NCBI RefSeq assembly: GCF_000423865.1
Contig: NZ_AUIU01000012.1
Coordinates: forward strand, 186,001-250,000
From: Thermodesulfovibrio thiophilus DSM 17215
GTDB taxonomy: Bacteria; Nitrospirota; Thermodesulfovibrionia; Thermodesulfovibrionales; Thermodesulfovibrionaceae
Length of the DNA stretch: 64,000 nt
Direction: 5' to 3'
Shown: piece by piece, positions 41,178 to 64,000 of the stretch
Position numbering within the stretch: position 1 is the stretch's first letter
How the letters are laid out: the number at the start of each line of letters is the position of its first letter
Notes under the pieces: model-generated
The model's database searches: none
What the model was told of the DNA's origin: nothing
Seen by the model: the letters and a program-made list of their open reading frames with translations, nothing else
Translations under genes and position numbers: made by a program

Positions 41178-41182
41178 AAACA

Positions 41183-41960: not shown

Positions 41961-41968
41961 GGGTAGCC

Positions 41969-42181: not shown

Positions 42182-42226
42182 AAAATATTGCTTCTAACTG
42201 ATTTTGATTCTTTTTAAAATTCCAGT
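42181..42226 (+). promoter_or_regulatory. Late promoter 1 (shared 13-bp element)
   Basis: GAAAATATTGCTT at 42181-42193, 21-bp spacer after its TTGCTT, TAAAAT at 42215-42220; ATG at 42227 is exactly +7 from the -10-like end. No Shine-Dalgarno, so leaderless if used. Confidence 0.7.
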
Positions 42227-44515: not shown

Positions 44516-44562
44516 GAAAATATTGCTTTTAAAGAGGTTTAAAAACAGTTAAAGTGAACGGT
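44516..44562 (+). promoter_or_regulatory. Late promoter 2 (shared 13-bp element)
   Basis: GAAAATATTGCTT at 44516-44528, 21-bp spacer, TAAAGT at 44550-44555, ATG at 44563 (+8). The element starts directly after the gpV stop. Confidence 0.7.
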
Positions 44563-45123: not shown

Positions 45124-45125
45124 AC

Positions 45126-49049: not shown

Positions 49050-49158
49050 ATGCAAAAAATGCGGTTTCATTATCACTCTTTATATTAAATATCTTAAAAA
49101 GCACGGGTTTAAATGTCCACGGTGTGGAAACACTGAATATAAAATTTTAATAACATGA
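49033..49158 (+). CDS. Com-like zinc-ribbon micro-protein
   Basis: 41-residue protein, M1 at 49033 in the end of the lysozyme gene. Two CxxC pairs: 'CKCKKCG' (positions 5-11; Cys 5, 7, 10) and 'FKCPRCGN' (Cys 28 and 31). Mu Com, which is a small zinc-finger RNA-binding activator of mom translation, has the same architecture. The tga stop overlaps the MuF start (ATGA). No mom-like gene is seen nearby. Confidence 0.7.
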   Translation: MNILCKCKKCGFIITLYIKYLKKHGFKCPRCGNTEYKILIT

Positions 49159-50417
49159 CAGAGCAAGACAAAGATATAGAATCAGCTTTAAATATAGTGC
49201 TTCCAGCGCTTGAAGCAGGCTTGCAAAAAGCCTTGTCAGAGACACTAAAGAAAGCCCGATATTTTATCTCCCAGCAGGATCTTTCAAGATACATAATGAG
49301 CATGCTTGAGTCACATATGAAGCTGTCACAAAAACAGCTTGATGCATTAAACAAACTGCTTGAAAAAATTTACACAAAAGAGCATGCAGCATTTCCCGTA
49401 TCAACCAAACTTACAATCTCAGATGAAAGAGCGATATCATACGCAACAAAACTACATGATTTCTATTTAGGTCGATTCTTTCAGGGCGACAGAGAAATAA
49501 GACTCGATTCGGTCAAATGGATGAGCAATTATTACCTCAAAAAGGGATATCCAGCTGGAAAGAACCAGGAAGGAGCAAGAAAATTCTTAGATGAATTCGG
49601 CAATTACCTATCCCAGAGGACAGAGACAAAGGCAAGGCAGATTGTAGATACAACTGTGAATTATCTGAGAAATAGTTCTCGTATAAAGGCAATGCAAAAA
49701 ATCCGCATAAAAAAATACAGATGGGATGCAACAGGAGACAGACTTACATGTCCAGCATGCAGAAGCATGGATGGAAGAGTATTTGATACAGGTGAGGCTG
49801 TGCGGGTGATTGAAATGCTTGAGGCTTCAGAAGACCCTGCACTCATAAAAGAACTAAGACCAATTCAGACTGATGTGCAGAAAGGATCTTCCTCAAGGCT
49901 TCCCACAAGGATGCCACCACTACATCCTGACTGTAGATGCAGGGCTGTTGCATTCTTCGAAGAGGAAACAGTTATGACAACAGTTGAAAGACCCACATGG
50001 GCAAAGGATACTCCTGCGCAGCGAGAGCTTGAAGAAGAATTCAGGGCATTGACAAACGAAGAAAGATTAAACCGCATCAGGGCACACATGGGAAGTAGCT
50101 GGCTAAGACCTGCAACAGGCGGCGGTGGTGAGAATGCATATAAGGAAGCAAAAAATGATCTGGAAAGGCATTTTATAAAACATGGAAAGGATCTGGGATT
50201 TAAAGACATAGATACATACTCAAAAGCATCTCATGATATCATTAAAGAACCAGAGGAAGTGTATGTAGAAAAAGGCAGAGATGGTACTGTATATCATTTT
50301 ATTAAAGATGGCAAAGTTGTTGTATCTAATGATGATGCATTAAAGATAGAGTCTTTTTATAAATTTGATGAAAGATGGAGGAGTTTTAAAAGAGATGGGA
50401 TTATTAGAATGCTATAA
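49155..50417 (+). CDS. MuF-type head morphogenesis protein with C-terminal extension (possible toxin)
   Basis: 420 residues. The Phage_Mu_F domain is seen at ~110-275: 'RQIVDTTVNYLRNSSRIKAMQKIRIKKYRWDATGDRLTCPACRSMDGRVF' and 'PTRMPPLHPDCRCRAVAFFEE' with conserved Cys/His. After a linker, residues ~332-420 form an added domain: 'AKNDLERHFIKHGKDLGFKDIDTYSKASHDII', 'GRDGTVYHFIKDGKVVVSNDDALKIESFYKF'. This looks like the PBECR (barnase/EndoU/RelE-like) nuclease domains often attached to MuF. The following gene overlaps by 23 bp. The toxin idea is inference. Confidence 0.85.
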   Translation: MTEQDKDIESALNIVLPALEAGLQKALSETLKKARYFISQQDLSRYIMSMLESHMKLSQKQLDALNKLLEKIYTKEHAAFPVSTKLTISDERAISYATKLHDFYLGRFFQGDREIRLDSVKWMSNYYLKKGYPAGKNQEGARKFLDEFGNYLSQRTETKARQIVDTTVNYLRNSSRIKAMQKIRIKKYRWDATGDRLTCPACRSMDGRVFDTGEAVRVIEMLEASEDPALIKELRPIQTDVQKGSSSRLPTRMPPLHPDCRCRAVAFFEEETVMTTVERPTWAKDTPAQRELEEEFRALTNEERLNRIRAHMGSSWLRPATGGGGENAYKEAKNDLERHFIKHGKDLGFKDIDTYSKASHDIIKEPEEVYVEKGRDGTVYHFIKDGKVVVSNDDALKIESFYKFDERWRSFKRDGIIRML

Positions 50418-50757
50418 AGATGAAGAACTTATTGAGCTGTGGCAGCAGGACTGCAAACCACCTGCTATAAAATTACGGTGGTATGCAACATCAGCAGCTA
50501 TACTTGATACCCGTGAAGCTATATTTGAAAGGAGGCTTGAGGATCAAGAAGAAGTCAAAAAAGCAGATATCGAACTCATAAAAATAGTCTTAAAAGAGGG
50601 TGCGGACCCGCCCTGTTCCGATGATCCAGAAAAGTATCCCATTACACACTGGTGGTGGCACCTGGATAAAATCGCTAATAGAACATACGATACCTCACTT
50701 CTGCCCGAGTATCTGATGGAGATTTATTTAAAAGCCCTACAGGGCGATTTTGAATGA
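50395..50757 (+). CDS. Small acidic protein, candidate immunity partner of the MuF extension
   Basis: 120 residues from ATG 50395 (GGAGGAG upstream), acidic and Trp-rich: 'CYKDEELIELWQQDCKPPAIKLRWYATSAAILDTREAIFE', 'YPITHWWWHLDKIANRTYDTSLLPEYL'. I do not recognise a family. It overlaps the MuF gene and is followed by a long palindrome. Placement right after a toxin-like domain is typical of immunity genes; it could also be an unrelated head-tail protein. Confidence 0.7.
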   Translation: MGLLECYKDEELIELWQQDCKPPAIKLRWYATSAAILDTREAIFERRLEDQEEVKKADIELIKIVLKEGADPPCSDDPEKYPITHWWWHLDKIANRTYDTSLLPEYLMEIYLKALQGDFE

Positions 50758-50801
50758 GCAGGGATGTTTTATATGGGTTTAACGATTATAGAGGCTTTTA
50801 A

Positions 50802-50827
50802 GGTGTTTATAAATATTTATAAACACC
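50802..50827. promoter_or_regulatory. Perfect 26-bp palindrome before the baseplate genes
   Basis: Half-site GGTGTTTATAAAT followed at once by its reverse complement. No T-run follows, so it is not a standard terminator. It may be an operator for a dimer or an mRNA hairpin 13 bp upstream of the ATG at 50840. Confidence 0.75.
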
Positions 50828-50839
50828 CCTGAGGTGATA

Positions 50840-51160
50840 ATGTACAGTCTGGTTGAAAGAGACACAGTAAAAAGCATACTTCAAAATATTAGATTAATTC
50901 TTACAACAGTTCAGGGATCTGACATCCACAGACCTGATTTTGGAAGCAGGCTTTATCTTTTTATAGATAAACCTCTTAATGCCATCACAATTGGCAGGAT
51001 CAAGGTAGAGATAAAAGATGCAATCTTGAAGTGGGAGCAAAGAGTGGAGATTGAAGATATTGCTTTAAAAAAAGACTACATCAATGCAAAACTCAACATA
51101 CAGATGAAGCTTAGAATAAAAGAAACAGAAGAGGTTATAAACACACAGCTATGGCTATAA
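50840..51160 (+). CDS. gp25/gpW-like baseplate wedge protein
   Basis: 106 residues from ATG 50840 with GAGGTG upstream. 'VKSILQNIRLILTTVQGSDIHRPDFGSRLYLFIDKPLNAITIGRIKVEIKDAILKWEQRVEIEDIAL' is the IraD/gp25-like fold of baseplate wedges. It overlaps gpJ by 10 bp. Confidence 0.87.
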   Translation: MYSLVERDTVKSILQNIRLILTTVQGSDIHRPDFGSRLYLFIDKPLNAITIGRIKVEIKDAILKWEQRVEIEDIALKKDYINAKLNIQMKLRIKETEEVINTQLWL

Positions 51161-52251
51161 AGTTCGTAGAGACTGATCCAACTCTATACGAAAAACAATT
51201 GATTGAAGCATACGAAAGGCTTACAAATAAAACGCTTCAACCCGCAGATCCTGAACGACTACTTATAAATCTTCTTGCATATGCCCTTACAATTACATCA
51301 ATAAACATAGATGAGACAGGAAGACAGAATCTTCTTGCATATGCAAGCGCTGAACATTTAGATGCTCTTGCAGAGTTTTATGGAATAGAGAGACTTTATC
51401 CCAAACCTGCTACGTGTATTTTGCGATTTAGTCTTTCAAGTGCTCTCAATTATGATGCAGTAATCCCCGCAGGGACAAGGGTAACGCCTGACGGTAATAT
51501 TATTTTTAAAACGGTAGAAGAAGTAAAAATCCCGGCAGGTAATCTTTCTGCCCAAGTGCAGGCAGAATGCGAAATAACTGGCAGTGCTGGTAATGGATAT
51601 CAGGTGGGGCAAATAAACAAACTTGTAGATGTTTTACCTCATGACATTTCTGCATCAAATACAACAATGACTATGTATGGTGCAGACATAGAGGATGATG
51701 AAAGATTCAGAGAACGCATAAGACAGAGCATTGAAAGGTTTACAAATGCAGGCTCTTGTGGAGCATACATATATCATACTCTGTCAGCACATCAAGATAT
51801 ATTAGATGTTTCAGTATTTAGCCCTCAGCCTGGAGAGGTGAATGTGGTTTTTATTATGAAAGATGGGGAGAGTCCAGACAACTCAATGATTCAGCTTGTG
51901 CAAAACTATCTTTCAAGTGAAAAAGTGAGACCTTTAACAGATATGGTTTATGTTTCTGCTCCAGAGGTAATTACATATAGCATTAACATAGAATATTACA
52001 TACATAAAAAAGATGAAGCTCTGGCAGGCTTAATTCAGCAAGATGTTGAAAAAGCTGCCCGGGATTTTGCTTTCTGGACAGGAACAAAAATTGGAAGAGA
52101 TATTCTACCTGAAGAGCTTATCTTGAGAGTGAAACAGGCTGGAGCCTATAGAGTGATCGTAAACAGTCCTGCCTATACAGCCTTACAGCAAAATCAAATT
52201 GCAAAAGCAGATTCATTTGTTCTCACTTATTCAGGCCTTATGGAAGATTAA
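51151..52251 (+). CDS. gpJ-like baseplate protein
   Basis: 366 residues of the baseplate J family: 'LINLLAYALTITSINIDETGRQNLLAYASAEHLDALAEFYGIERL', 'ALNYDAVIPAGTRVTPDG', 'AECEITGSAGNGYQVGQIN', 'DDERFRERIRQSIERFTNAGSCGAYIYHTLSA', 'EVNVVFIMKDGESPD'. It closes the baseplate ring. Last gene of late block 2. Confidence 0.93.
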   Translation: MAIKFVETDPTLYEKQLIEAYERLTNKTLQPADPERLLINLLAYALTITSINIDETGRQNLLAYASAEHLDALAEFYGIERLYPKPATCILRFSLSSALNYDAVIPAGTRVTPDGNIIFKTVEEVKIPAGNLSAQVQAECEITGSAGNGYQVGQINKLVDVLPHDISASNTTMTMYGADIEDDERFRERIRQSIERFTNAGSCGAYIYHTLSAHQDILDVSVFSPQPGEVNVVFIMKDGESPDNSMIQLVQNYLSSEKVRPLTDMVYVSAPEVITYSINIEYYIHKKDEALAGLIQQDVEKAARDFAFWTGTKIGRDILPEELILRVKQAGAYRVIVNSPAYTALQQNQIAKADSFVLTYSGLMED

Positions 52252-52253
52252 CT

Positions 52254-52300
52254 GAAAATATTGCTTCTAACTGCTCAGCGTCTCAGTTTAAGATGCAGGT
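52254..52300 (+). promoter_or_regulatory. Late promoter 3 (shared 13-bp element)
   Basis: GAAAATATTGCTT at 52254-52266, then CTAA as in promoter 1; 22-bp spacer, TAAGAT at 52289-52294, ATG at 52301 (+7). Confidence 0.7.
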
Positions 52301-53017
52301 ATGGAAGATTACACAAAACTATCTCAGATTGAATCTTTTTCCGAGCATGATGAATATGTAGAGTTTATGGCAGTTGCCTTATCCTCTACCTGTGTAAAGC
52401 GAGCCTACGGAGAACTCTGTTTTGAAGAAGAAACACTTCGGAAATATGCTGATACCCTTATGGGGAAACCAGTTTTACTTGATCACAGATATGAAGCTGG
52501 AGCCATTATTGGCGTAGTAATTCATAGCGAGTATGATCATGATAAAAAAGCAATTCTTGCAAAAATAAGGATGCCCAAGGCAGGGAATGAGAGGTTGATA
52601 ACGCTTCTTAAGATGGTTCCATCTCCTGTCAGAAGCCTCTCTATTGGCGCAATAATTGAGACAGAGAAAAAAGATGGAAAGTTTTATGCAACATCAATAG
52701 ATTTTAAAGAGCTGAGCATAGTTTTTGAGGGAGCAGATAAAAATGCAAAAATACTTTCTTTTGAGGAAAGCTCCAGCAAAAATCATGAAAAGTTTTCTGA
52801 AGAAGAGTGGTGGGATGATCCTGAGCTAAGAAAGAAAGCTCCCCTGGACTATTTTCTTGAACCGGGCTCAAGACGATTTCCATATAAAACATGGGATGGG
52901 AACATCTCCTGTGAAAGACTTCGTGCTGCAATGTCATTAGCAAATCTTCATGGATATAGACAAATTTACGAAAGAGCAAATGCTTTATATGAAAAACACT
53001 GCAAAAAGGAGGATTAA
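52301..53017 (+). CDS. Prohead protease
   Basis: 238 residues. Serine-protease-like assemblin features: 'LMGKPVLLDHRYEAGAIIGVVIHSEY' (His) and 'MVPSPVRSLSIGAIIETEK' (Ser in SLSIGA), 'FKELSIVFEGADKNAKIL'. A C-terminal 'DYFLEPGSRRFPYKTWDGNISCERLRAAMSLANLHGYRQIYERAN' domain is found in related phage proteases. It starts late block 3 before scaffold and capsid, the expected order. No ribosome site is visible, fitting a leaderless start. Confidence 0.85.
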   Translation: MEDYTKLSQIESFSEHDEYVEFMAVALSSTCVKRAYGELCFEEETLRKYADTLMGKPVLLDHRYEAGAIIGVVIHSEYDHDKKAILAKIRMPKAGNERLITLLKMVPSPVRSLSIGAIIETEKKDGKFYATSIDFKELSIVFEGADKNAKILSFEESSSKNHEKFSEEEWWDDPELRKKAPLDYFLEPGSRRFPYKTWDGNISCERLRAAMSLANLHGYRQIYERANALYEKHCKKED

Positions 53018-53425
53018 ATGGAAAGGCTAACAAGAGACATTGTGGTTGCAATGTCTAAGGAAGAACTTCAGGATGTGGTAGAAACTCTTCAGATGAAACT
53101 TGAAGTGGCAGAAAAAGAAATAGAAACTCTCAAGGCTGATGCAGAGACAGGTAAAAAATACAAAGAGCATCTTCAAAAAGAAGCAATAAGGCTTGTCAGA
53201 GCTGTTGACGGCGAGAATGCTCCGATTCTAAAACTCATTGATAGAGCAGATGTGGACACTCTTAAAGAAATTACAGACGAATATTTTGAAAAAGGAAAAG
53301 ATAAATTCAAGTCTACGTCGCAGCCTCAAAAACTGGAAGAAGAACAAATAACAATAGAGGCTCTTCAAAAAGCAGATTACAAAAAACTATTAGAAATAAG
53401 AGAAAAATTTATGAAGGAGGCTTAA
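53018..53425 (+). CDS. Scaffold-like protein
   Basis: 135 residues, highly charged and mostly coiled coil ('LQDVVETLQMKLEVAEKEIETLKADAETGKKYKEHLQKEAIRLVRAV'). Its location between protease and major capsid protein indicates a head scaffold that the protease removes. GGAGG before the ATG. Confidence 0.78.
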   Translation: MERLTRDIVVAMSKEELQDVVETLQMKLEVAEKEIETLKADAETGKKYKEHLQKEAIRLVRAVDGENAPILKLIDRADVDTLKEITDEYFEKGKDKFKSTSQPQKLEEEQITIEALQKADYKKLLEIREKFMKEA

Positions 53426-53426
53426 T

Positions 53427-54326
53427 ATGCCAGTAACAGGACAGACAAACCCGGAGCTTTTCCCTACATACTATGAGAGAAAGCTTTTAGAGTATGTGAA
53501 GGCAAATCTTATTGCGACACGATATGGTCAAAAACATAGCTTTACCCCGAACACGGGAAGAACTGCTGTTTTTACGAGATTTTCTCCTTTGCAGAAGGCA
53601 ACAACTCCTCTTACAGATCAGCCAACTCCTGCTCAAGGAGCATCCATAGCAGCTCAGCAAGTTCAGGTGTCTATAAATGAATATGGAAACTACATAGATC
53701 TGGATGAGTTCACAGATATTACTTCGTTCACCCCTCTCGTTGATGTGGCAACGGATCTATTATCGTATAATGCGGAAGAAAGTCTTGATGCTGTAGCTAT
53801 GCAGCAGATTACTGCGGGCACAAATGTATACTATGCCTCTGGTGTATCAGGTAGATCAGGACTTGATGGTACAAAAAAACTTTCAAAAGATGATGTGCGG
53901 AAAGGTGTAAATCTTCTAAATAGAGCAGAAATTTTACCATTCCCTGATGGATACTATGTTCTTCTGGTTCATCCAGACAAAATCCTCGATCTTTTTACCG
54001 CCCAAGAGCTTATTACTCTTGCTAGCGCCAAATATGAAGCACTTGAAAAAGGAGTGGTGGGAACGTTTGGAGGAGCACAAATAGTAGTTTCAACAACTCT
54101 TCCGATTCTTGCGGGAGCTGGTGGAGGTACCCCAGCAAGTGATGTTTACCAGAGCGTGCTTTTAGGACAGAATGCTTACGGCGTGGTTGATATAGATGGG
54201 AACTCTATTCAGATGGTCTATACCAATGTTGATAAACTTGGCAGAATCAAAACTGTGGGATGGAAGGCCTATTTTGCGGCAAAAAGACTCTATGAACCAG
54301 CACTGTTGAGGATAGAATCCAATTAA
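53427..54326 (+). CDS. Major capsid protein (N4-gp56 type)
   Basis: 299 residues. 'YYERKLLEYVKANLIATRYGQKHSFTPNTGRTAVFTRFSPLQKATTPL' and 'QVQVSINEYGNYIDLDEFTDITSFTPLVDVATDLLSYNAEESLDAVAM', and later 'NAYGVVDIDGNSIQMVYTNVDKLGRIKTVGWKAYFAAKRLYEPALLRIE', match the N4-gp56 major capsid family with HK97 fold. Not the Mu T type. GGAGG upstream; 1-bp gap after scaffold. Confidence 0.9.
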   Translation: MPVTGQTNPELFPTYYERKLLEYVKANLIATRYGQKHSFTPNTGRTAVFTRFSPLQKATTPLTDQPTPAQGASIAAQQVQVSINEYGNYIDLDEFTDITSFTPLVDVATDLLSYNAEESLDAVAMQQITAGTNVYYASGVSGRSGLDGTKKLSKDDVRKGVNLLNRAEILPFPDGYYVLLVHPDKILDLFTAQELITLASAKYEALEKGVVGTFGGAQIVVSTTLPILAGAGGGTPASDVYQSVLLGQNAYGVVDIDGNSIQMVYTNVDKLGRIKTVGWKAYFAAKRLYEPALLRIESN

Positions 54327-54334
54327 GGAGGCAT

Positions 54335-54496
54335 ATGATGAAGATATACATTGAAAAGGATAGTTCAGTATGGATTAATGGCAAAGAAATAAAAGTAGCC
54401 CCTGGCTCTCAGGAAGTTGACGACGAAGTGGGAAGAATTCTGATTGATGCAGGATATGCAAAAGCCATAGATGAAGAAAAAAGAAAAAATAAATGA
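54335..54496 (+). CDS. Small head-associated protein
   Basis: 53 residues from ATG 54335 with AAGGAGG upstream: 'MKIYIEKDSSVWINGKEI' then 'VDDEVGRILIDAGYAKAID'. Reads as a small beta protein similar in layout to the short protein at 55717. Stop overlaps the next ATG by 4 bp. Function unknown. Confidence 0.7.
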   Translation: MMKIYIEKDSSVWINGKEIKVAPGSQEVDDEVGRILIDAGYAKAIDEEKRKNK

Positions 54497-54825
54497 TAAC
54501 AGTTGATGATATAAAAAGCTTTCTCAATACAGCTGGAGCAGATTTTTCTGAGAACGAGATACAAAGTGCGATTGTCCTTGCTGAGAAAAGAATAAAAGAC
54601 ATGCTGCAAGTAGAAACAGTTGATGATACAGATAGCAAAATCAAGAAAGCATGGATCTTACTATCTGTGGGCGAGCTTGCAAGTAGTGTGAATCTTTACT
54701 GGAGAGGGAATGAAAAAACAGAGCTAATTAGAGTAAAAGAGCTCACAGCAGAAGCGGAAGCATTGCTTGGTGTTGTGCCAAAAGGAGCGGTAAAATGGCA
54801 GACATTAGAGACGCTGATAGAGTAA
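54493..54825 (+). CDS. Head-tail connector (gp6-like)
   Basis: 110 residues: 'MITVDDIKSFLNTAGADFSENEIQSAIVLAEKRIKDMLQ' and 'KAWILLSVGELASSVNLYWRGNEKTELIRVKELTAEAEALL' fit the helical gp6-like head-tail connector family that forms a ring under the portal. Overlaps the next gene by 31 bp. Confidence 0.75.
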   Translation: MITVDDIKSFLNTAGADFSENEIQSAIVLAEKRIKDMLQVETVDDTDSKIKKAWILLSVGELASSVNLYWRGNEKTELIRVKELTAEAEALLGVVPKGAVKWQTLETLIE

Positions 54826-55220
54826 TAGCAGACATAGAGAGAAAAATAAGAGAGTCAATCACTAAAACAGTGGCCCAGACTGCTCAGTATGCTGAATCAA
54901 AACTAAGTGAGCTTTTCAAGGCTGAAGGCAGGACATTAAACGTTGAGTGGTCACAACTTAAGGAAGCATACCTTAAGCAGAAGATTAAAAAGGGATTCTC
55001 TGAAAAGATACTCCATAAAACAACCACTCTTGCTCAGAGCTTTACCTCGCAGGTAAAAACATTTGAGGCAGCGGTGGGAACACCTGTTTGGTATGCCTCT
55101 TTTCATGAGCATGGAACCAGAAGAATGCCTGCAAGAGCATTTATGAAACCTGTGTTTGAGCATGTTTTAAGCTCTGGAATTATAGGAAGGCTATTTAAGG
55201 AGGTAATAAAGGGATGTTAA
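54795..55220 (+). CDS. Virion morphogenesis/tail completion protein (gpS/Mu gpG-like)
   Basis: 141 residues. Helical first half, then 'TPVWYASFHEHGTRRMPARAFMKPVFEH', the 'Y..~HE.GT..MPARPF' signature of phage virion morphogenesis/HK97-gp10-like proteins, which close the head-tail junction. Confidence 0.85.
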   Translation: MADIRDADRVIADIERKIRESITKTVAQTAQYAESKLSELFKAEGRTLNVEWSQLKEAYLKQKIKKGFSEKILHKTTTLAQSFTSQVKTFEAAVGTPVWYASFHEHGTRRMPARAFMKPVFEHVLSSGIIGRLFKEVIKGC

Positions 55221-55684
55221 TTGAGATAGAGCAGGCGATAATAAACAGGCTTAAACAAAAAGGCATTCCCGCTGAAGCATGGTCAGGCAAGCCTGATGAG
55301 CTTTTTTATCGTCCCAAAGCCTTTCCGACAGCAAGGCTTGTTATTGATGCGATGGATTTTCAGGAAATGCATTATACAGGGCATTATGGAGTAGTGCTTG
55401 CAGGTTCCTGCCTTGTATTTTTCAGGAGCCTGAAAGAAAAAGGACAGGGAGCATATGAAGTAATTGAAAATATTTTAAACGCAATAACAGGATTTGAAGC
55501 ATGGGGATTTGATTTAAGAATTAAATCTGTAAAGCTCATGTATCACGAATCTGCAGAGTTCTGTTATCAAATACAGTTTACTGGTTATGGTAAGTATATT
55601 GTTTCCCTTGAGGATTCTGAAATTCTTGCAATAAGAATTAAAACATATGAAGGAGAAGCGCTTTCCAGTGAGGTAAGCAAATAA
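55214..55684 (+). CDS. DUF1834-like tail protein (Mu gp37 position)
   Basis: 156 residues: 'IEIEQAIINRLKQKGIPAEAWSGKPDELFYRPKAFPTARLVIDAMDFQ' and 'GSCLVFFRSLKEKGQGAYEVIENILNAITGFEAWGFDLRIKSVKLM' match the gp37/DUF1834 layout. Found next to the sheath in Mu-like phages. Function probably tail terminator. Confidence 0.75.
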   Translation: MLIEIEQAIINRLKQKGIPAEAWSGKPDELFYRPKAFPTARLVIDAMDFQEMHYTGHYGVVLAGSCLVFFRSLKEKGQGAYEVIENILNAITGFEAWGFDLRIKSVKLMYHESAEFCYQIQFTGYGKYIVSLEDSEILAIRIKTYEGEALSSEVSK

Positions 55685-55716
55685 AATAATCACTGATAAA
55701 CTTTAGGAGGAATACG

Positions 55717-55914
55717 ATGCAATACAGGATAAAAACTAATTATCCAACGATAATTGAAATTGGAGGCAATGCATATATGCTTTTCCCTCATAAAAACGTT
55801 GATCTTCCAGAAGATGCAGAGATTGTTCAAACTTATGAAGGATTGGGATATATAGAACGAATAAATGAAACGCCAACAAGGCCAAAAAAAAAGGAGGTAA
55901 GCGATGCCAGCTAA
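55717..55914 (+). CDS. Small tail-region protein
   Basis: 65 residues: 'QYRIKTNYPTIIEIGGNAYMLFPHKNVDLPEDAEIVQTYEGLGYIERI' then a basic tail. Clear AGGAGG before the ATG. Located just before the sheath, as Mu gp38. Function unknown. Overlaps the sheath gene by 11 bp. Confidence 0.75.
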   Translation: MQYRIKTNYPTIIEIGGNAYMLFPHKNVDLPEDAEIVQTYEGLGYIERINETPTRPKKKEVSDAS

Positions 55915-57169
55915 TTATCTGCACGGTGTAGAAACAATAGAGATCCTCAAAGGACCAATTCCTGTTAGAGAAGTAAAATCTGCGGTGGTTTTCCTGGTGG
56001 GCACTGCTCCGGTGCATCTTACAAAGCCACAGGATATATCAGAAGATGACTGGTATGCTCAAACCATTAACAATCCTCTATTAATTCTCAGTAGAGATGA
56101 CGCAGCATACTACTTTGGCGATGCGGCAACGGGATATACCCTTCCCTATGCCTTTGATGCTATTTTTGATCACGGAGGGACAACTATCATTGCAGTAAAT
56201 GTTTTTGATCCTAGAACCCATAAAGATACCAGCGATAATCCAGACCCATCTGTTGTGACCTCATCTGACATTATAGGTACAATAAACGGAATTACAGGTA
56301 GACGCACAGGACTTAAGCTTATAGATGAGTTTTACGGCCGTTTTGGCTTTACAGCAAAAATCATTCTTGTGCCCGTGTACTGTGAACAATCTGCAGTGTC
56401 TGCTGAGATGATTGCTCTATGCGAAACCCACAGAGCAATTGCCCTTATTGATGCACCATTGGGTATGACCGTTCAGCAGGTGATCAATGCCCGTGGAACA
56501 GGTGGCCAGCTGAATACATCGGCATACAGAGCTGTAATCTGCTATCCTCACCTGAAAGTCTGGGATACCGATACAAACCAGGAAAGGCTGGAACCATTAA
56601 GCCAGAGGCTTGCAGGAGTTATTGCAAAAGTAGACCATGAAAATGGATATTGGTGGTCTCCATCAAACAATGAAATTTTGGGGATTGTTGGTATAGAGCG
56701 TTACATTACAGCCTCAATTAATGATCCGCAGGCACAGACAAATATTCTGAATGAAAATGGTATCGTAACGGTTTTCAATTCCTTTGGCACAGGCTACCGT
56801 GTTTGGGGCAACCGTTCTGCAGCATGGCCTACGAAGACGGATCCTAAAAATTTTATCAATGTACGTAGAACTGCGGATATAATTGCAGAGTCTATTGAAT
56901 ACTCCACAATGCAGTGGCTGGACAAACCAATCACAGTAGCGATTGATGGAGTTCTCAGCATGGTAAATGCCTTCATACGCACACTAATTGGAAGAGGAGC
57001 TCTGATAGACGGAAGATGCTATTTCCTGCCAGATAAAAATCCAGAGACAGAGCTTGCAAATGGACATCTCACATTCACATATGAGATTATGCCGCCAACT
57101 CCTGCCGAAAGAATTACTTTTGAACAGGTAATAAATACAGAACTGCTTAAAAAACTTATAGGAGGCTAA
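55904..57169 (+). CDS. Contractile tail sheath protein
   Basis: 421 residues. 'NYLHGVETIEILKGPIPVREVKSAVVFLVGTAP' N-terminus and the C-terminal conserved domain 'GYRVWGNRSAAWPTKTDPKNFINVRRTADIIAESIEYSTMQWLDKPITVAIDGVLSMVNAFIRTLIGRGALIDGRC' are typical of phage sheath proteins. Shows that the phage is a myovirus. A GGAGG lies before the ATG. Confidence 0.95.
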   Translation: MPANYLHGVETIEILKGPIPVREVKSAVVFLVGTAPVHLTKPQDISEDDWYAQTINNPLLILSRDDAAYYFGDAATGYTLPYAFDAIFDHGGTTIIAVNVFDPRTHKDTSDNPDPSVVTSSDIIGTINGITGRRTGLKLIDEFYGRFGFTAKIILVPVYCEQSAVSAEMIALCETHRAIALIDAPLGMTVQQVINARGTGGQLNTSAYRAVICYPHLKVWDTDTNQERLEPLSQRLAGVIAKVDHENGYWWSPSNNEILGIVGIERYITASINDPQAQTNILNENGIVTVFNSFGTGYRVWGNRSAAWPTKTDPKNFINVRRTADIIAESIEYSTMQWLDKPITVAIDGVLSMVNAFIRTLIGRGALIDGRCYFLPDKNPETELANGHLTFTYEIMPPTPAERITFEQVINTELLKKLIGG

Positions 57170-57170
57170 A

Positions 57171-57686
57171 ATGATAGAAATATCCAAAGTATTTAATGCG
57201 CGTGTTTATATTGACGGCACAGACTTTATTGCAAAGGCAGAAGAGATCGATCTTCCAAAGGTAAAATTTAAATTTTCAGACACAAAGGCGCTTGGCCTTT
57301 ATGCGGATGGAGAGTTTCCAACGGGGCTGGATAAACTTGAAGCAAGAATAAAATTTAACTCGGTCTATCATGAATTCATAGCACTTGCAGCAGATCCGTT
57401 TACTGCAAGAACAATAATTATCTACGCTCCGATGCAGGACTGGCAACAGACAGGAGTTGTTAAAACAAGCTCGGTTAAGGTAGAAATAAGAGGTTTTTTT
57501 AAGGAGTGGGACTCTGGCAAACTTAAAAAGGCAGAATCAGCAGAGGCAGAGGCAACTGTGTCGTGCATCTATTACAAGCTTGATGTGGACGGACAGGATG
57601 TCATTGAAGTGGATACAATCAATAACATTTATAAGATTCAGGGCAAAGACATACTGCAGGACTACAAAATAAACATTGGAGGATAA
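57171..57686 (+). CDS. Tail tube protein (FII-like)
   Basis: 171 residues: 'NARVYIDGTDFIAKAEEIDLPKVKFKFSDTKALGLYADGEFPTGLDKLEARIKFN' and 'VEIRGFFKEWDSGKLKKAESAEAEATVSCIYYKLDVDGQDVIEVDTINNIYKIQGKDIL' match the major tail tube FII family. One base after the sheath. Confidence 0.93.
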   Translation: MIEISKVFNARVYIDGTDFIAKAEEIDLPKVKFKFSDTKALGLYADGEFPTGLDKLEARIKFNSVYHEFIALAADPFTARTIIIYAPMQDWQQTGVVKTSSVKVEIRGFFKEWDSGKLKKAESAEAEATVSCIYYKLDVDGQDVIEVDTINNIYKIQGKDILQDYKINIGG

Positions 57687-57689
57687 TAA

Positions 57690-57992
57690 GTGAAGGAACT
57701 AAAGCTTTCTGATAAAAGAGTTGCAACCTTTAGGGAAGCCAAGGGCAAGGATCTATTTGATGCAATGATGCTAGCAAATCAGCCAGGAGAGATCTCAAAG
57801 CTTTTATTATCAAAAATACTGCTTATTGACAACAAACCAGTAACGGAGTTTGATCTGGAGGAAATGCCACTTCAGGATGTTCTAATTCTGCTTTCTGCGT
57901 TTGGTGAATTATACCCTTTCTCCCTGACAAAACAACAATCTTTGGACTTATCAAAGAGGGAGGATTCAGCTACTCAGACATCAGAGAAATGA
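57690..57992 (+). CDS. Tail assembly chaperone, zero-frame product (gpE/Mu gp41-like)
   Basis: 100 residues from GTG 57690. 'LSDKRVATFREAKGKDLFDAMMLANQPGEISKLLLSKILLIDNKPVT...LPLQDVLILLSAFGELYPF' is the tail-chaperone (gpE) pattern that binds the tape measure. Translation to the stop gives an arbitrary-looking 23-residue tail after Phe77; a -1 shift there gives a conserved-looking extension instead. Confidence 0.87.
   Translation: MKELKLSDKRVATFREAKGKDLFDAMMLANQPGEISKLLLSKILLIDNKPVTEFDLEEMPLQDVLILLSAFGELYPFSLTKQQSLDLSKREDSATQTSEK
57914..57920 (+). other. Programmed -1 frameshift site CCCTTTC
   Basis: Zero frame reads C CCT TTC (Pro76-Phe77). Slipping back one base re-pairs Pro tRNA on CCC and Phe tRNA on TTT, an exact X XXY YYZ site. 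The -1 frame is open from just after a TGA at 57905 to 58061. Confidence 0.75.
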
Positions 57993-58063
57993 CCCTAAGA
58001 GAGATTGCTTTCTGGGTTTTGCGATTAAATGAATATTTAAAAGAATTGCAACAGGAAAGATAG
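57920..58063 (+). CDS. Tail chaperone C-terminal extension reached by -1 frameshift (gpE'/Mu gp42-like)
   Basis: In the -1 frame, 47 codons follow: LPDKTTIFGLIKEGG, FSYSDIREMTLREIAFWV, LRLNEYLKELQQER, stop TAG. 'SYSDIREMTLREIAFWV' resembles the short second part of tail chaperones (E' of P2, T of lambda G-T). The fusion would have 124 residues. An ATG at 57989 (ATGA with the zero-frame stop) would give only the last 24 residues, so the frame-shifted fusion is more likely. The tape measure ATG follows directly at 58064. Confidence 0.75.
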   Translation, partial: LPDKTTIFGLIKEGGFSYSDIREMTLREIAFWVLRLNEYLKELQQER

Positions 58064-60208
58064 ATGGAAAATATTTTTTCTCTTGCCATACTTTTTAAGG
58101 CAGTAGATAACGTTACGGCCTCCATAAGGAACATTCAAAATTCAACAAAAGTTCTCTCTGCCGATGTTGAGAGAGCAACGAGCAAGTTCAAACTGTTTGG
58201 GGAGAAAATAAAATCCCTGGAAAACACTGCCACATCCTTTCAGTCAATGGTTGGAGCTGCAGCATGGACTGGAGCCTTTGCCGGAACAATGAAGTCTTTC
58301 GGCGAATTAGAGGATGCTTCTCTGTCGCTCAAGTCAACTTTTATGGAAGCAGGAGGAGTAATTCCAGAAGTTTTTCAGCAGGTAGACAGTGAGGCAAAAA
58401 AACTTGGAGCAGAGCTTCCAGGAACTTCAGCTGATTTCTACAAACTTGCATCAGTAATGAGGCAGCTTGGCATAGAGGGAGATGTTCTTGCTAATGGCGG
58501 GCTTAGATCAGCAGCATATCTTGGAGCAGTTTTAAAAATACCATATGAAGAGGCTGGTTTTTATGTGGCAAAGTTCAGCCAGGCTCTTGGCATTTCCCAG
58601 AAAGATCTTGAAGACTTTATGGATGTGGTTCAAAGGCTTGGGCATCTTGGCGTTAATGCTTCAGAAATGCAGTATTCCTTTTCTAAATTAAGCGGCGCCT
58701 TAAAAATACTTGGATGGCAGGGGCTGGAAGTCAGCAAGCAACTCGCACCGATTGTTGGCAGGTTCGTACAGCTTGGATATTCAGGTGAAACAGTAGGACA
58801 TAACCTTTCTAATTTATTTCTGGCTTTCCTGGATTCAGGAAAACTGGATAAATTCAATAAAGAGCTTTCTCAATATGGAATTCATCTTGACGCAATAGAT
58901 AAAAAAACAGGACAAATTAAAAAGCCTGAAGAATTAATTGCAGAGATTGACAAGATCTCTCAAGCATATAAAAGGGGTATTCTTTCACAATCTGAACTAT
59001 TTGAAGCCCTCAGTAAACTTACAGGCGCAGGCGGTGAAGACCTTAAAATGCTTGCAACGCTTGTAACAGAAGGGATAGAGGGATATAACCAAATGAATGA
59101 AGCTATGGCAAAGCAGGCATCTCTGACGAAAAGAATTGAGACAGTATCTTCATCTCTGAGAAATGTATGGGAGGCCTTTACTGGAACTGCTCAAAATCTG
59201 TTTGCTTTGATTGGATCTTCTCTTGCGCCAGCTCTAAAAGGGATTGCGACCACATTAAACTACTTTACTGATATGCTGAGCGATTTTTTTGAAGAACATA
59301 AAACACTTGCGAGCATACTTGGCTGGACAGTGGGAATTTTAGCAGGAGTATCAGGTGGTTTTGTAGCTCTTGGAATAGTTATTACGGCTTTGCTCTTTCC
59401 TCTGAGAATTTTTCTCACTACCATTCAAATAGTGGGACCGGTGCTAAGTGGGCTGACGATATTAATAAAGACATTAAGCAGGACGGCAATTACTGCTATA
59501 GCGTCCATGTCTAAAGCCATGTTTACCACTCCTGTGGGCTGGGTCATAATGGGCATTATTGCTTTGGTTGCAGCTGGTTATTTACTGTGGAGAAACTGGG
59601 ATAAAGTAAGCAAGGCTCTTGTATCGGCATGGAACTGGCTTAAAGAGAACTGGGGAAAAATATTAGGCCTTTTTCTCTGGATTAATCCTATCACAGCACC
59701 AATTAAAGCCTTAAATGAGCTTTATAGGAAGATTACGGGTATGAGCCTTTTTGATGCAGGCAGAAAACTTATCGAGACTCTCCTGAAAGGGATTTTATCT
59801 GTGGCAGCAAAACCAGTAGAGGCTGTTAAGGCTATCGCACAAAAAATAAGAAATCTTCTACCTTTTTCTCCGGCAAGGGAAGGTCCTCTTTCACAACTGC
59901 ACAGAATCAAGCTTATTGAAACAATTGCACAGAGCATAAAACCAGCACCTTTACTTACAGCATTAAAGCAAACATTTGAGCCAATGAAGGCTATTGTTCA
60001 ACCCCTGTTTCAACCCATTAAGCAAACATTTGAGCCAATGAAGGCTGCAGGTGTTTCAGGGGTTAATATCACTGTTAATCTCGGTGGTGTAAATATTACA
60101 GGACAGGCAACAGAAAAAGAAGCAAAAGATATCGTTTCGATCATACAAAAAGAAGTGGAAAGGACACTGTCTCGCATTGAAACAGCAAAGTTTAGAAGAT
60201 CATATTGA
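58064..60208 (+). CDS. Tail tape measure protein
   Basis: 714 residues. N-terminal helical region 'AVDNVTASIRNIQNSTKVLSADVERATSKFKLFGEKI', TMP core 'GAELPGTSADFYKLASVMRQLGIEGDVLANGGLRSAAYLGAVLKIPYEEAG', 'LTGAGGEDLKMLATL', TM segments ~420-465 and ~490-512, and 'NLLPFSPAREGPLSQLHR', typical of the end of such proteins. Length should set tail length (roughly 100 nm by the usual rule). A 27-bp direct repeat occurs near the 3' end. Confidence 0.94.
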   Translation: MENIFSLAILFKAVDNVTASIRNIQNSTKVLSADVERATSKFKLFGEKIKSLENTATSFQSMVGAAAWTGAFAGTMKSFGELEDASLSLKSTFMEAGGVIPEVFQQVDSEAKKLGAELPGTSADFYKLASVMRQLGIEGDVLANGGLRSAAYLGAVLKIPYEEAGFYVAKFSQALGISQKDLEDFMDVVQRLGHLGVNASEMQYSFSKLSGALKILGWQGLEVSKQLAPIVGRFVQLGYSGETVGHNLSNLFLAFLDSGKLDKFNKELSQYGIHLDAIDKKTGQIKKPEELIAEIDKISQAYKRGILSQSELFEALSKLTGAGGEDLKMLATLVTEGIEGYNQMNEAMAKQASLTKRIETVSSSLRNVWEAFTGTAQNLFALIGSSLAPALKGIATTLNYFTDMLSDFFEEHKTLASILGWTVGILAGVSGGFVALGIVITALLFPLRIFLTTIQIVGPVLSGLTILIKTLSRTAITAIASMSKAMFTTPVGWVIMGIIALVAAGYLLWRNWDKVSKALVSAWNWLKENWGKILGLFLWINPITAPIKALNELYRKITGMSLFDAGRKLIETLLKGILSVAAKPVEAVKAIAQKIRNLLPFSPAREGPLSQLHRIKLIETIAQSIKPAPLLTALKQTFEPMKAIVQPLFQPIKQTFEPMKAAGVSGVNITVNLGGVNITGQATEKEAKDIVSIIQKEVERTLSRIETAKFRRSY
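59966..60046 (+). repeat. 27-bp direct repeat in tape measure gene
   Basis: The 27 bases at 59966-59992 recur exactly at 60020-60046 (54-bp period), encoding KQTFEPMKA twice. Suggests a recent tandem duplication. Confidence 0.85.
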
Positions 60209-60253
60209 AAATATTGCTTTAGAGCCTTGCTTCATTGAATTAGAATAAAGCAT
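60207..60253 (+). promoter_or_regulatory. Late promoter 4 (shared 13-bp element)
   Basis: GAAAATATTGCTT at 60207-60219, 21-bp spacer, TAGAAT at 60241-60246, ATG at 60254 (+8). It would drive gpI, fibre and DGR target genes. Confidence 0.7.
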
Positions 60254-60883
60254 ATGATAAAAGAACTTAAGCCTTTAAGCCTTCAGGGAGAAAACATAGA
60301 TGCGCTTTTGGATAGCTTTGATCTTGCATTTGCTCCTTTGTTCTCTCAGGTAATCAATGCTCTTATATATTCACGCATAGATGAGATCGCTGATACAAAT
60401 CTACTTGATTTGCTTGCATGGCAGTTTCATATCGAGGAATGGGAGCGTATAGAAACAGTTGAAGAAAAACGCAAGGCCATCAAATCAGCAATACAATTGC
60501 ATAGATACAGGGGCACGCCCTGGGCGGTAAAACATGCGCTAAAAAGTATAGGACATGATAGTGAATTAAAAGAATGGTTTCAATATAATGGCAATAAATA
60601 CAGATTTAAAGTTTTTTCGCTAAAACCGATAAAATCTGAAGATGAATTTATCGGTTTCGTTCAAACCATAAATGAATACAAGAACGAAAGAAGCTGGCTT
60701 GACAGCATTGGAACGCATCATGAGCATAACTTAGCTCTTTATGCATGCGTGAAGACATGTGTTGGCAACAAACACATAGTTATGCCAAATATGCCTAACT
60801 TTTATATATATCCAGCAACTAATTATGCGGACATCAGTTTTAGAGTTGCTAACTATGTAAGCATAGGAGTGGCAAATGGCTAA
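60254..60883 (+). CDS. P2 gpI-like tail/baseplate protein
   Basis: 209 residues: 'LSLQGENIDALLDSFDLAFAPLFSQVINALIYSRIDEIADTNLLDLLAWQFHIEEWERIETVEEKRKAIKSAIQLHRYRGTPWAVKHALKSIG' is the tail protein I family signature. It joins fibres to the baseplate. Overlaps the fibre gene by 8 bp. Confidence 0.92.
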   Translation: MIKELKPLSLQGENIDALLDSFDLAFAPLFSQVINALIYSRIDEIADTNLLDLLAWQFHIEEWERIETVEEKRKAIKSAIQLHRYRGTPWAVKHALKSIGHDSELKEWFQYNGNKYRFKVFSLKPIKSEDEFIGFVQTINEYKNERSWLDSIGTHHEHNLALYACVKTCVGNKHIVMPNMPNFYIYPATNYADISFRVANYVSIGVANG

Positions 60884-61790
60884 TTTTTCAGGGACAATGA
60901 TTACAAATAAGGGCTTGAATTTACTCGCTAAGGCTATTAATGGAACAAATCTGACATTTACACGTATGGCGCTTGGAGATGGATTCTGGCAGGAAAACAT
61001 AAATCCTGTTGAGCTTGACGCCTTAATTTCAGAGAAATTCAACATACAAATTCAGGGCATAGAACTAACTGGCACCGGAACTGCAAGAATGCGCGGAGTT
61101 GTAACAAATAATATGATTCAAGCGGGTTTTTTTGCGCGAGAACTCGGAATATTTGCACAGGATCCTGAAATTGGAGAGATTTTATATGCAGTTTCTTATT
61201 CTGGCGAGCAAGCTGATTATATCCCGCCAACTGGTAACGTTTTTCTGGAATCAGTTATAGATGCTTATGTTGTTATTGATAGAGCTGAAAATGTTACCGC
61301 AGTTATTGACGACACTGTTGTTCTTGCAACAAAGAAAGATATTATTGAACACAATGAATCTCTGTCATCACATCAAAATATACAGGTATTAATAGATGAT
61401 CATAAAAAATCTTCGTCAGAGCATCAGATTCCTGAACAGATTCAATATGCAATTACACATCACGACCATATAAATTACACCAAAAGATACATACATTTTC
61501 AACAAGCAAGCGCAATCGAATGGAGTATTTTGCACAATCTAAATACTGGTTATCCTATTGTTCAAGCATATCAAGAAGACACAGAGCAGATTAATCTTGA
61601 TGGATACTGCGGAAGTGGAGCATACTGTGGACAAAGTGGACTATACTGCGGAGGCGGAATCGCCATAAATGCTCTTAAGCTTACAGATATTCCTTATTCT
61701 GCTATTTTGATTATTTCGCAGAATAAATTGCTGTTGAGGTTTAGCTATCCCCAGCAGGGCAAGGCTATTATATTGGGAGGTGTATCATGA
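60876..61790 (+). CDS. Tail-collar/fibre protein (DUF3751-type N-terminus)
   Basis: 304 residues. 'GTMITNKGLNLLAKAINGTNLTFTRMALGDGFW' and 'GFFARELGIFAQDPEIGEILYAVSYSGEQADYIPP' are the phage tail-collar fibre signature that attaches to the baseplate. A short helical middle, and a C-terminal Gly/Cys/Tyr-rich patch 'YCGSGAYCGQSGLYCGGG'. Probably carries or assists the DGR-diversified adhesin downstream. Confidence 0.87.
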   Translation: MANFSGTMITNKGLNLLAKAINGTNLTFTRMALGDGFWQENINPVELDALISEKFNIQIQGIELTGTGTARMRGVVTNNMIQAGFFARELGIFAQDPEIGEILYAVSYSGEQADYIPPTGNVFLESVIDAYVVIDRAENVTAVIDDTVVLATKKDIIEHNESLSSHQNIQVLIDDHKKSSSEHQIPEQIQYAITHHDHINYTKRYIHFQQASAIEWSILHNLNTGYPIVQAYQEDTEQINLDGYCGSGAYCGQSGLYCGGGIAINALKLTDIPYSAILIISQNKLLLRFSYPQQGKAIILGGVS

Positions 61791-62110
61791 GAGGAATGCC
61801 GAAGTGGCTCAACTCAAAAGAGGATGTTTTAAATGTTGTTGGGCTTGCAAGTGATGGTCAGTTAAGTAAATCAGACGTCAAAAAGAAAATTAATGATTTG
61901 CTCAGCGACGAAAGAGTATACAACTACAAAGCTGAAGTGTCTTCAGATTATCAACCAGGTGAAAATGAAAAGGTTATGACAGAAAAGCACTATGATGGAA
62001 CAGAAAAAATTGTCTGTTATGAGCTGGTTGAGAATATGTATGCACGATATATTCAACTCGGATTTACTAAGGATGAAATAATTAGCTTATTAAGCTCACT
62101 GGAGGATTAA
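61787..62110 (+). CDS. Small protein between fibre and DGR target
   Basis: 107 residues, ATGA overlap with the fibre gene: 'MPKWLNSKEDVLNVVGLASDGQLSKSDVKKKINDLLSDERVYNYKAEV' then 'YELVENMYARYIQLGFTKDEIISLLSSLED'. Mostly helical. May be a fibre chaperone or a linker; no family recognised. One base before the DGR target gene. Confidence 0.7.
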   Translation: MRGMPKWLNSKEDVLNVVGLASDGQLSKSDVKKKINDLLSDERVYNYKAEVSSDYQPGENEKVMTEKHYDGTEKIVCYELVENMYARYIQLGFTKDEIISLLSSLED

Positions 62111-62111
62111 A

Positions 62112-63191
62112 ATGGGATTATTATGGCAGGACTCGTCAAGTTATCCACTGAACGCAGCATACCTTTCAAGGCCACATAATATTCGTCCTGGCGCTGGAGA
62201 CCATTATCTTGAGCCGAATGCTCAGCTAAATGGGGTGGTTTTGAAGGCGGGGACGATTGTTCCATTGTTTAATGGAACAGTGTGGAAAGTATATGAATTT
62301 ACAGGTGATGTAAATATTGTTGCGTTGGATGTAGGAAGTTTTCAGTTTGGCAAAGACTATTATGTTTATCTCTGTGATGATGGGTCTACAAGTGGTTTGT
62401 TGTTGATTTCTTTAAACTCCACCGTTCCATCCGGATATAATGCAAATAATAGCAGAAAAATAGGTGGATTTCATTATGGGAGAAAGAGAAATTCATTCAC
62501 TGTTTCTGATATTACAAATAATGTTGTGGTCCCAAATTCAGTATGGGATTTAGTTCATAGGCCCAGATGCTCCCCAGAAGGCATGGTTTATATTGGCAAT
62601 GGTGTATGGGTTGATATATATCTTGTTAGCGTCAGTGAAACTATAACATTTTCAGCTGGAAATGGAAGCCCCATAATAACAGGAACTTGTAAATCAACAT
62701 ATAATTCAGTTCCTCTAACCGGGACAGAGGGCTTATGTGGTTATAATTTCGTTGAATTGGCAGGTAGAACAGGAAAGAGGTTGCTTTCATATGCAGAATG
62801 GTTGAGGGCTGCATGGGGAAGTCCTCAGGGGAACAATTCTGACAACAATAATGCATGGAGCGCAACAACAAATACTTCAAGACAGAATACAGGATATGTC
62901 AATAATGCGACTTCTCTCATGAATGTTATAGATTGTGCTGGAAATATTTGGGAATGGCTTGATGAGTATACCATAAGACAGGACAGCACTTCATGGGCAT
63001 GGTATGATGTAATGCAGGGATGGAATGTTGGCCAACAATATTTACCGAATAACATTGGAGTGTCTCAATGCATTAGTGGCGGTATGTGGTCTGATGGGGC
63101 TCGATGTGGCTCCCGGACGATCCGCTTGATCGATTATCCTTCGACTGTGAGCGCTAACTGCGGGTCTCGCTTTGCCTGTGACTCTCTGTAG
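62112..63191 (+). CDS. DGR target: tail-fibre adhesin with C-type-lectin/FGE-like variable domain
   Basis: 359 residues. N-terminal ~150 residues are beta-rich and probably attach to the fibre. Residues ~160-359 have the formylglycine-generating-enzyme/C-type-lectin layout: 'CSPEGMVYIGNGVWVDIYLVS', 'LAGRTGKRLLSYAEWLRAAWG', 'NVIDCAGNIWEWLDEY', 'GGMWSDGARCGSRTI', 'NCGSRFAC'. The VR covers residues ~322-357; DGR-varied positions are Ser327, Arg338, Ile340, Asp341, Ser347, Ala348. By analogy with BPP-1 Mtd this is the receptor-binding protein whose ligand surface is varied. GGAGG precedes the ATG. Confidence 0.93.
   Translation: MGLLWQDSSSYPLNAAYLSRPHNIRPGAGDHYLEPNAQLNGVVLKAGTIVPLFNGTVWKVYEFTGDVNIVALDVGSFQFGKDYYVYLCDDGSTSGLLLISLNSTVPSGYNANNSRKIGGFHYGRKRNSFTVSDITNNVVVPNSVWDLVHRPRCSPEGMVYIGNGVWVDIYLVSVSETITFSAGNGSPIITGTCKSTYNSVPLTGTEGLCGYNFVELAGRTGKRLLSYAEWLRAAWGSPQGNNSDNNNAWSATTNTSRQNTGYVNNATSLMNVIDCAGNIWEWLDEYTIRQDSTSWAWYDVMQGWNVGQQYLPNNIGVSQCISGGMWSDGARCGSRTIRLIDYPSTVSANCGSRFACDSL
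63077..63183 (+). repeat. DGR variable repeat (VR)
   Basis: Matches TR 63555-63661 with offset 478. Differences at template A: 63091 C, 63123 C, 63124 G, 63130 T, 63132 G, 63151 G, 63153 G. Other differences: 63100 C for T and 63142 C for G. The last 30 bases (63154-63183) are identical and GC-rich, the position of the initiation-of-mutagenic-homing (IMH) site. I saw no strong hairpin directly after it. Confidence 0.95.
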
Positions 63192-63212
63192 TCTGATTTC
63201 TGGAGATCTGCT

Positions 63213-63545
63213 TTGAATAACCTTATCATATATCAAAAGGTTTATGATTGCGCATTGTACTTGTTCCCAATTGTTGAAAGATTTCCAAAGCATGAAAAAT
63301 TTGTTCTCTGCACGCACATTAAATCGTGCCTGATCGGAATTGCAAGGCTTATTGTTAAGGCGAACAAGAGCAAAAACAAAAAATCTGTTTTGTATGATAT
63401 CGATATTTGCATCGAGGAGCTCAAATTTCTTGTCAGATTCGCTCATGACAGAAAGTATTTATCACATAAAAGCTACGAATATGTAAGTAAACTTATCTCA
63501 GAAATAGGAAGGCTTTTGGGAGGCTGGATCAAAAGTGAGGGGTAA
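63213..63545 (+). CDS. avd: Avd-like accessory protein of the DGR
   Basis: 110 residues, a basic four-helix-bundle protein like Avd and the 23S-rRNA intervening-sequence protein family: 'IIYQKVYDCALYLFPIVERFPKHEKFVLCTHIKSCLIGIARLIVKANKSKNK' and 'LKFLVRFAHDRKYLSHKSYEYVSKLISEIGRLLGGWIKS'. Avd binds the RT and the TR RNA and is needed for cDNA synthesis. The best start is TTG at 63213 with TGGAG 8 bases upstream; no ATG lies near. The TR follows its stop after 9 bases. Confidence 0.9.
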   Translation: MNNLIIYQKVYDCALYLFPIVERFPKHEKFVLCTHIKSCLIGIARLIVKANKSKNKKSVLYDIDICIEELKFLVRFAHDRKYLSHKSYEYVSKLISEIGRLLGGWIKSEG

Positions 63546-63554
63546 GGGCGATTA

Positions 63555-63661
63555 TGGCGGTATGTGGTATGATGGGGTTCGATGTGGCTCCCGGACGATC
63601 AACTTGAACAATTATCCTTGGACTGTGAACACTAACTGCGGGTCTCGCTTTGCCTGTGACT
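63555..63661 (+). repeat. DGR template repeat (TR)
   Basis: 107 bp, 20 adenines, with several AAC/AAT codons in the VR register (template residues N, N, N, N, N), the optimal codons for adenine-directed diversification. Read in the target frame it gives GGMWYDGVRCGSRTINLNNY and then PWTVNTNCGSRFACD. Confidence 0.95.
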
Positions 63662-63674
63662 TACAATTGTCAGA

Positions 63675-63698
63675 ATATAGCCTTTATGGAGGCTATAT
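63675..63698 (+). ncRNA. Hairpin in the TR-RT spacer
   Basis: 9-bp perfect stem (63675-63683 / 63690-63698, ATATAGCCT with AGGCTATAT), 6-nt loop, 14 bases after the TR. In BPP-1 the spacer RNA after TR is required for cDNA priming; this stem could play that part. The rest of 63699-63798 holds no gene that I can support. Confidence 0.6.
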
Positions 63699-63798
63699 CA
63701 GTGAGCAAGTCAGGCTCTTATTCCTTCCTGTTAAAAGGAAAAGATATACAGACCCAAGCGGTAAGTAAGGGTAAAGCTGAACATGGCTGGGGTTATTT

Positions 63799-64000
63799 AT
63801 GCCAAAAACATTTAGTGGCATTTATAAGAAAATATATTATTTCCAGAATCTGCATGCAGCATATTTAAAGGCTCGTAGATGCAAAAGATACAGACAAGAA
63901 GTTCTTAAATTCACTGCAAACCTTGAAGAGAATTTGATCGCTATTCAAAATGAGCTTATCTGGAAGCTTTACAAGCCACTGCCATTTAGGGATTTTTATG
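63799..64000 (+). CDS. DGR reverse transcriptase (N-terminal part)
   Basis: First 67 residues of an RT, running off the window. 'IYYFQNLHAAYLKARRCKRYRQEVLKFTANLEENLIAIQNELIWKLYKPLPFRDFY' matches the N-terminal DGR/retron-type RT pattern ('N L..A...ARkGKr....v..F....e.nL..l...L..g.Y.P..yr.F'). It would copy the TR RNA with errors at adenines and home the cDNA to the VR. Start ATG at 63799, preceded by a weak ribosome site (GGGG). Confidence 0.92.
   Translation, partial: MPKTFSGIYKKIYYFQNLHAAYLKARRCKRYRQEVLKFTANLEENLIAIQNELIWKLYKPLPFRDFY

Follow-up and report, generated by a model that had tools for sequence, protein, structure and literature searches.

A complete Avd-type diversity-generating retroelement in a Mu-like prophage of Thermodesulfovibrio and a stepped TG motif that may mark its target

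Near the right end of the window, the 64,000-nucleotide stretch of Thermodesulfovibrio DNA analysed here, an adhesin gene ends in a variable repeat (VR) with a matching template repeat (TR) downstream. We asked whether this pair belongs to a complete diversity-generating retroelement (DGR), and what could mark the VR as the copy to be rewritten. In DGRs, Avd and the reverse transcriptase (RT) bind the avd-TR-spacer transcript, reverse transcription is error-prone at adenines, and the cDNA replaces the VR. We consider it highly probable that the locus is a complete Avd-type DGR carried by a Mu-like prophage that looks intact, at its right end; the functions of the RT and of the phage, and the role of a TG ladder that follows the VR, are predicted.

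Table 1. Features of the prophage and its DGR. Sequence past the window end was read from locus L002 (window coordinate = L002 + 61500).
Feature	Position	Strand	Evidence or remark
IS256/Mutator-family transposase gene, split by prophage	33626..34537	+	PF00872 E=4e-53
Target-site duplication CTGTA, 5 bp, left copy	34533..34537	.	right copy window-equivalent 65032-65036 (L002 3532-3536)
Mu-like prophage, 30,494 bp	34538..64000, to window-equivalent 65031 (L002 3531)	+	TGTT...AACA ends
CI-like repressor, S24 peptidase domain	35483..36172	-	domain match
MuA-type transposase	36813..39128	+	PF09299; phrog_310 E=1.9e-60
MuB-type AAA ATPase	39119..39985	+	PF13401 E=8e-16
Head and contractile-tail genes	45574..57169	+	PHROGs
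Tape measure and Tail_P2_I genes	58064..60883	+	domain and PHROGs matches
Tail-collar fibre gene	60876..61790	+	PF12571 N-terminus
Small gene with no family match, located between those for fibre and adhesin	61787..62110	+	counterpart conserved in Thermodesulfovibrio sp. N1 (L006 5964-6296)
DGR target gene, 359-aa Mtd-like adhesin, C-terminal FGE/C-type-lectin domain	62112..63191	+	PF21916 E=1e-27, PF03781; model
VR	63078..63183	+	VR/TR alignment
Strand-oriented TG ladder	63179..63210	+	TG at 63179, 63187, 63194, 63201, 63209; shuffle p=0.0012 for this copy
avd, accessory variability determinant, TTG start	63213..63545	+	NF033474 equivalog E=3e-37; PF22296 E=9e-34
TR	63556..63661	+	VR/TR alignment, genome search with TR
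Structured RNA of the TR-RT spacer, Rfam RF02921 (RT-14)	63654..63795	+	full-length match, 57.4 bits vs cut-off 48.1
Reverse transcriptase gene	63799..64000, on to window-equivalent 64824	+	sequence past window, PF00078

The MuA-type transposase with its AAA ATPase partner, the TGTT...AACA ends and the CTGTA duplication identify a Mu-like prophage, as the preliminary description had proposed, and the thermophilic sulfate-reducer host suggested there is well founded, the genus being Thermodesulfovibrio. Repeats of the TTTTGTGAAC type lie near both prophage ends. When the flanks of the interrupted IS256-type gene were joined in silico, they gave one open frame that resumes after the right end of the prophage, and unbroken relatives spanning this join, which represents the empty site, were present in three genomes of the genus (G004, G005 and G001). 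An IS256-like transposase remnant (C-terminal part) was also judged by eye to lie at 31500-31970 on the minus strand. The head and contractile-tail genes include those for terminase large subunit, portal, endolysin, protease, major head protein, baseplate and tail sheath, and the DGR cassette forms the last gene block. The prophage is complete and intact-looking, and to judge from its sequence would encode a functional phage. The product of the small gene in front of the adhesin is possibly an adhesin-attachment or assembly factor.

Inspection of the genes around the TR revealed the enzymatic parts of a DGR. The open reading frame between VR and TR, earlier called Avd-like, is Avd, a protein that most but not all DGRs possess, by both family matches in Table 1, that to the curated equivalog NF033474 scoring above its cut-off. 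Relatives of known structure are 4dwl, a single entry of five chains, and chain B of 8ub7, with 45 chains over nine entries, five in each. An RT with DGR motifs had been expected beyond position 64000, and the sequence past the window end indeed contains a complete one of 341 aa with no stops, a PF00078 (RVT_1) domain, a YMDD catalytic motif and LPIGALTSQ. This RT matched the phrog_1423 reverse transcriptase (E=5e-139), and its best match among all solved structures was the BPP-1 DGR RT (8ub7, E=1e-59). The top NCBIfam RT model was a group II maturase, with a score under its cut-off. The enzyme is predicted to be active. RF02921 also occupies the TR-to-RT spacer of Bacillus phage BalMu-1 and of three further DGR loci, and is the counterpart here of RF03022, the spacer RNA of BPP-1.

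The target had been described as a tail adhesin expected to adopt a C-type-lectin fold, and a structural model bears this out. The model, built from 42 homologues (mean pLDDT 89), matched crystal structures of Mtd variants with Z 33 over 308 residues, nearly its full length, at 2.6 Å. The next matches were far lower (Z 16-17), and the DGR proteins of Treponema (2y3c) and Thermus (5vf4) gave Z 14-16. Together with the PF21916 match, the model supports assignment of the adhesin as an Mtd homologue with a PF21916 second domain and a C-type-lectin VR domain. The most variable columns among the 42 adhesins (325, 327, 328, 331, 338, 340, 341, 347 and 349) are the VR adenine codons and their counterparts; by homology with Mtd, the variable residues would lie on one face.

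VR and TR could be aligned over 106 bp with no gaps at an offset of 478, so that the repeat pair and offset first reported were right and the length of 107 bp was not. Of the 20 template adenines, 7 differ between the two repeats, as do 2 of 86 other positions (Fisher exact p=9e-5); only the number of other positions, earlier put at 87, needed correction. Codon alignment recovered exactly the six adenine-derived changes listed before (Y327S, N338R, N340I, N341D, N347S and T348A), and the two non-adenine changes in the VR were also present, T to C giving V330A and G to C giving W344S. No further VR was found when the whole 1.87-Mb genome was searched with the TR. With adenine-focused VR/TR differences, Avd, RT and spacer RNA all found, the locus has the DGR signature known from BPP-1, as had been claimed.

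Whether this DGR still diversifies its adhesin is a separate matter. It might be genuine but decaying, the prophage copy having stopped diversification while the VR drifts, a reading that we regard as rather unlikely. The two non-adenine changes point that way, as one of them, W344S, affects a position that is Trp in 40 of 42 adhesin relatives. Because this Trp is near-invariant and our TR still reads TGG, the non-adenine change suggests that rewriting has not since passed through this part of the VR, and so argues against very recent VR rewriting. The TR, moreover, has 20 adenines versus 22-26 in close relatives, and lacks adenines where the TRs of relatives read AAC (M325, Y327, D328 and T345). 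The target site of the BPP-1 type includes a GC-rich hairpin with a GRNA loop, 4-34 bp after the VR (PMC3240598); no stem of at least 6 bp with a short loop was found in the 70 nt after our VR. By our criteria (stem of at least 7), however, hairpins follow only 34 of 108 Avd-type VRs, so that a missing hairpin does not exclude membership among DGRs. Close relatives likewise have no hairpin, yet look active from adenine-focused changes: adenines account for 12/12 VR/TR differences in Thermodesulfovibrio sp. N1, 13/13 in L074, 9/10 in L008 and 10/12 in L076. Decay is further opposed by the cassette genes, all open and full length, and by the 7 of 9 differences that fall at adenines in our own pair.

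One prominent feature of the VR flank was a series of regularly stepped TG dinucleotides, which we call the TG ladder. It reads TGACTCTC-TGTAGTC-TGATTTC-TGGAGATC-TG, with five TGs at steps of 8-7-7-8 nt, overlaps the end of the VR and the adhesin stop codon, and is absent after the TR. For comparison across DGRs, a ladder was defined as at least four TGs at 7/8-nt steps, and the presence of Avd was scored for each DGR with a profile. Ladders, mostly of 4-5 TGs, followed 57 of 108 Avd-bearing VRs, versus none of 72 Avd-less VRs and one of 108 TRs. Our own locus was scored with three TGs in this set, its VR end having been extended by chance matches, and the ladder count is therefore conservative. 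Among 75 non-redundant related DGRs, TG-TG distances 3' of the VR peaked at 7 (113 versus 35.5 +/- 5.5 in shuffles) and also at 14 and 15; 3' of the TR there was no peak, with 8 at distance 7. CA gave no such signal, which shows that the TG pattern is oriented. The pattern was replicated in Mtd-type loci (ladders at 18/31 VRs versus 0/31 TRs) and in known phages (6/19 versus 0/19).

Several simpler origins of the ladder were tried and rejected. It is not a by-product of composition, since shuffles yielded 2.4 ladders per 108 against the 57 observed, nor a general feature of gene ends, as it was present at 0.7% of the ends of 1346 other ORFs from these loci versus 48% of VR ends. Other step pairs gave 0-5 per 108, or 20 for the overlapping 6/7, compared with 57 for 7/8. 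There was no association with the hairpin (p=0.68). CA steps in the TR-RT spacers appeared enriched; pairing of the ladder with the spacer RNA was rejected, within-locus complementarity between VR flank and spacer being no better than with the spacers of other loci (z=1.5). Avd status switches only three times on the RT tree, and the link between Avd and the ladder is thus confounded by common descent.

What might such an element do? The direction of transfer in BPP-1 is set by an element of 21 bp that differs from the TR by five mismatches (PMC3240598). The account of why information flows only from TR to VR rests on this one element. When the BPP-1 sequences were compared, TGs at 8-7 steps were found at the VR end, and those mismatches turn the middle phased TG into AC in the TR. 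Since the mismatches hit the middle TG, and since the TR here has no ladder, the ladder makes a good candidate VR-marking element; present after the VR and missing from the TR, it would designate the VR as recipient. Targets co-directional with replication expose their sense strand on the lagging-strand template, and the TG of the ladder sits on the sense strand. In a 2026 reconstitution, cDNA transfer was favoured at co-directional targets, and the integration step was described as incompletely understood (PMC12875486). An Avd pentamer with RT and cDNA would bind the single sense strand in steps of 7-8 nt. By replacing the VR, the cDNA would change as many as a dozen or so amino acids on the face with which the Mtd-like protein binds its receptor. 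Ladder lengths of 4-5 fit five Avd subunits, which is not proof. We propose, as a hypothesis for which the chances seem to us evenly balanced, that the TG ladder is an undescribed and widespread target-site element of Avd-type DGRs, of which the IMH directionality element is one instance; that the TR, having no ladder, is never rewritten; and that the ladder is likely read single-stranded by a particle of Avd pentamer, RT and RNA, with roughly one TG for each Avd subunit, which places the cDNA at the VR. No description of the ladder was found in the accessible DGR literature, where the IMH and the hairpin only are described, so that its novelty is provisional.

The ladder could instead act in RNA, for example in avd translation or transcript stability, rather than as a DNA target. 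Many loci have it directly upstream of avd, and here it lies where the adhesin gene ends and avd, with a TTG start, begins. Ladders also follow VRs located 0.5-1 kb upstream of avd, however, and in Mushuvirus (L176) the VR that precedes the ladder is part of a gene lying 3' of the RT. These placements, together with the rarity of ladders after the remaining ORFs of these loci, make a role in RNA improbable in our judgement, and we prefer the DNA target-site reading.

Comparison with known systems places the cassette in an established type. BPP-1, a podovirus, shares the mtd-avd-TR-RT order, the Mtd fold, Avd and RT homologues and the TGs at the VR end; in contrast to our locus, it has the GC-rich hairpin, carries RF03022 instead of RF02921, and uses the 3' end of a tRNA as attachment site. 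Chromohalobacter phage YPCBV-1 (OP380511; PMC9769972), described as Mu-like, has the order baseplate-adhesin-avd-RT and the closest phage adhesin (39% identity), but is 36 kb long and high in G+C, infects a halophilic host and has only two TGs in step after its VR. BalMu-1 (NC_030945), Mu-like by name, agrees in cassette order, RT-14 RNA and a five-TG ladder, whereas its RT is 43% identical and is followed by holin and endolysin genes. Hankyphage p00 of Bacteroides (PMC6199706) integrates in the manner of Mu, with 5-bp repeats, and carries a DGR, but its RT is only 23-24% identical and no Avd match was obtained with the profile used. The DGR of Thermodesulfovibrio sp. N1 (L006, also in IMG/VR) has the same order with an adhesin 77% and an RT 65% identical, and differs in that its VR and TR diverge at 12 positions, all adenines. 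The cassette type is thus already known, since the Mu-like YPCBV-1 (PMC9769972), BalMu-1 and the hankyphage (PMC6199706) came earlier, and to call the phage type new, as was done at first, was an overstatement: Mu-like phages that share this gene order are already known. The idea that VR and TR are an ordinary repeat beside an RT of another class (group II intron, retron or Abi), for which the sub-threshold maturase model could be cited, is refuted by the combination of the phrog_1423 match, LPIGALTSQ, Avd, TR and RT-14 RNA with a closest solved RT that is BPP-1's.

What the locus adds is a complete Mu-like prophage of a thermophile host with an Mtd-type adhesin and a full cassette, and possibly a source of a heat-stable adenine-mutagenic RT. 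We give greater weight to the ladder revealed by comparison than to the cassette itself. A pattern that follows half of the Avd-type VRs in the set and almost no TRs makes the question of cDNA placement directly testable with reporters that already exist, and could help to detect remote VRs and to design mutagenesis tools based on DGRs.

Further observations concern other genomes. Among the genomes searched for multiple VRs, only one had a second, related DGR. A Spirochaetia genome (L009; loci L461-L465) contains at least two DGRs with related TRs, and both VRs are followed by stepped TGs, in one case interrupted by a hairpin. In Patescibacteria DGRs (L042-L063), CTTAG/CTTTG-type steps of 7-8 nt occur after the VR and may be a variant form of the TG ladder.
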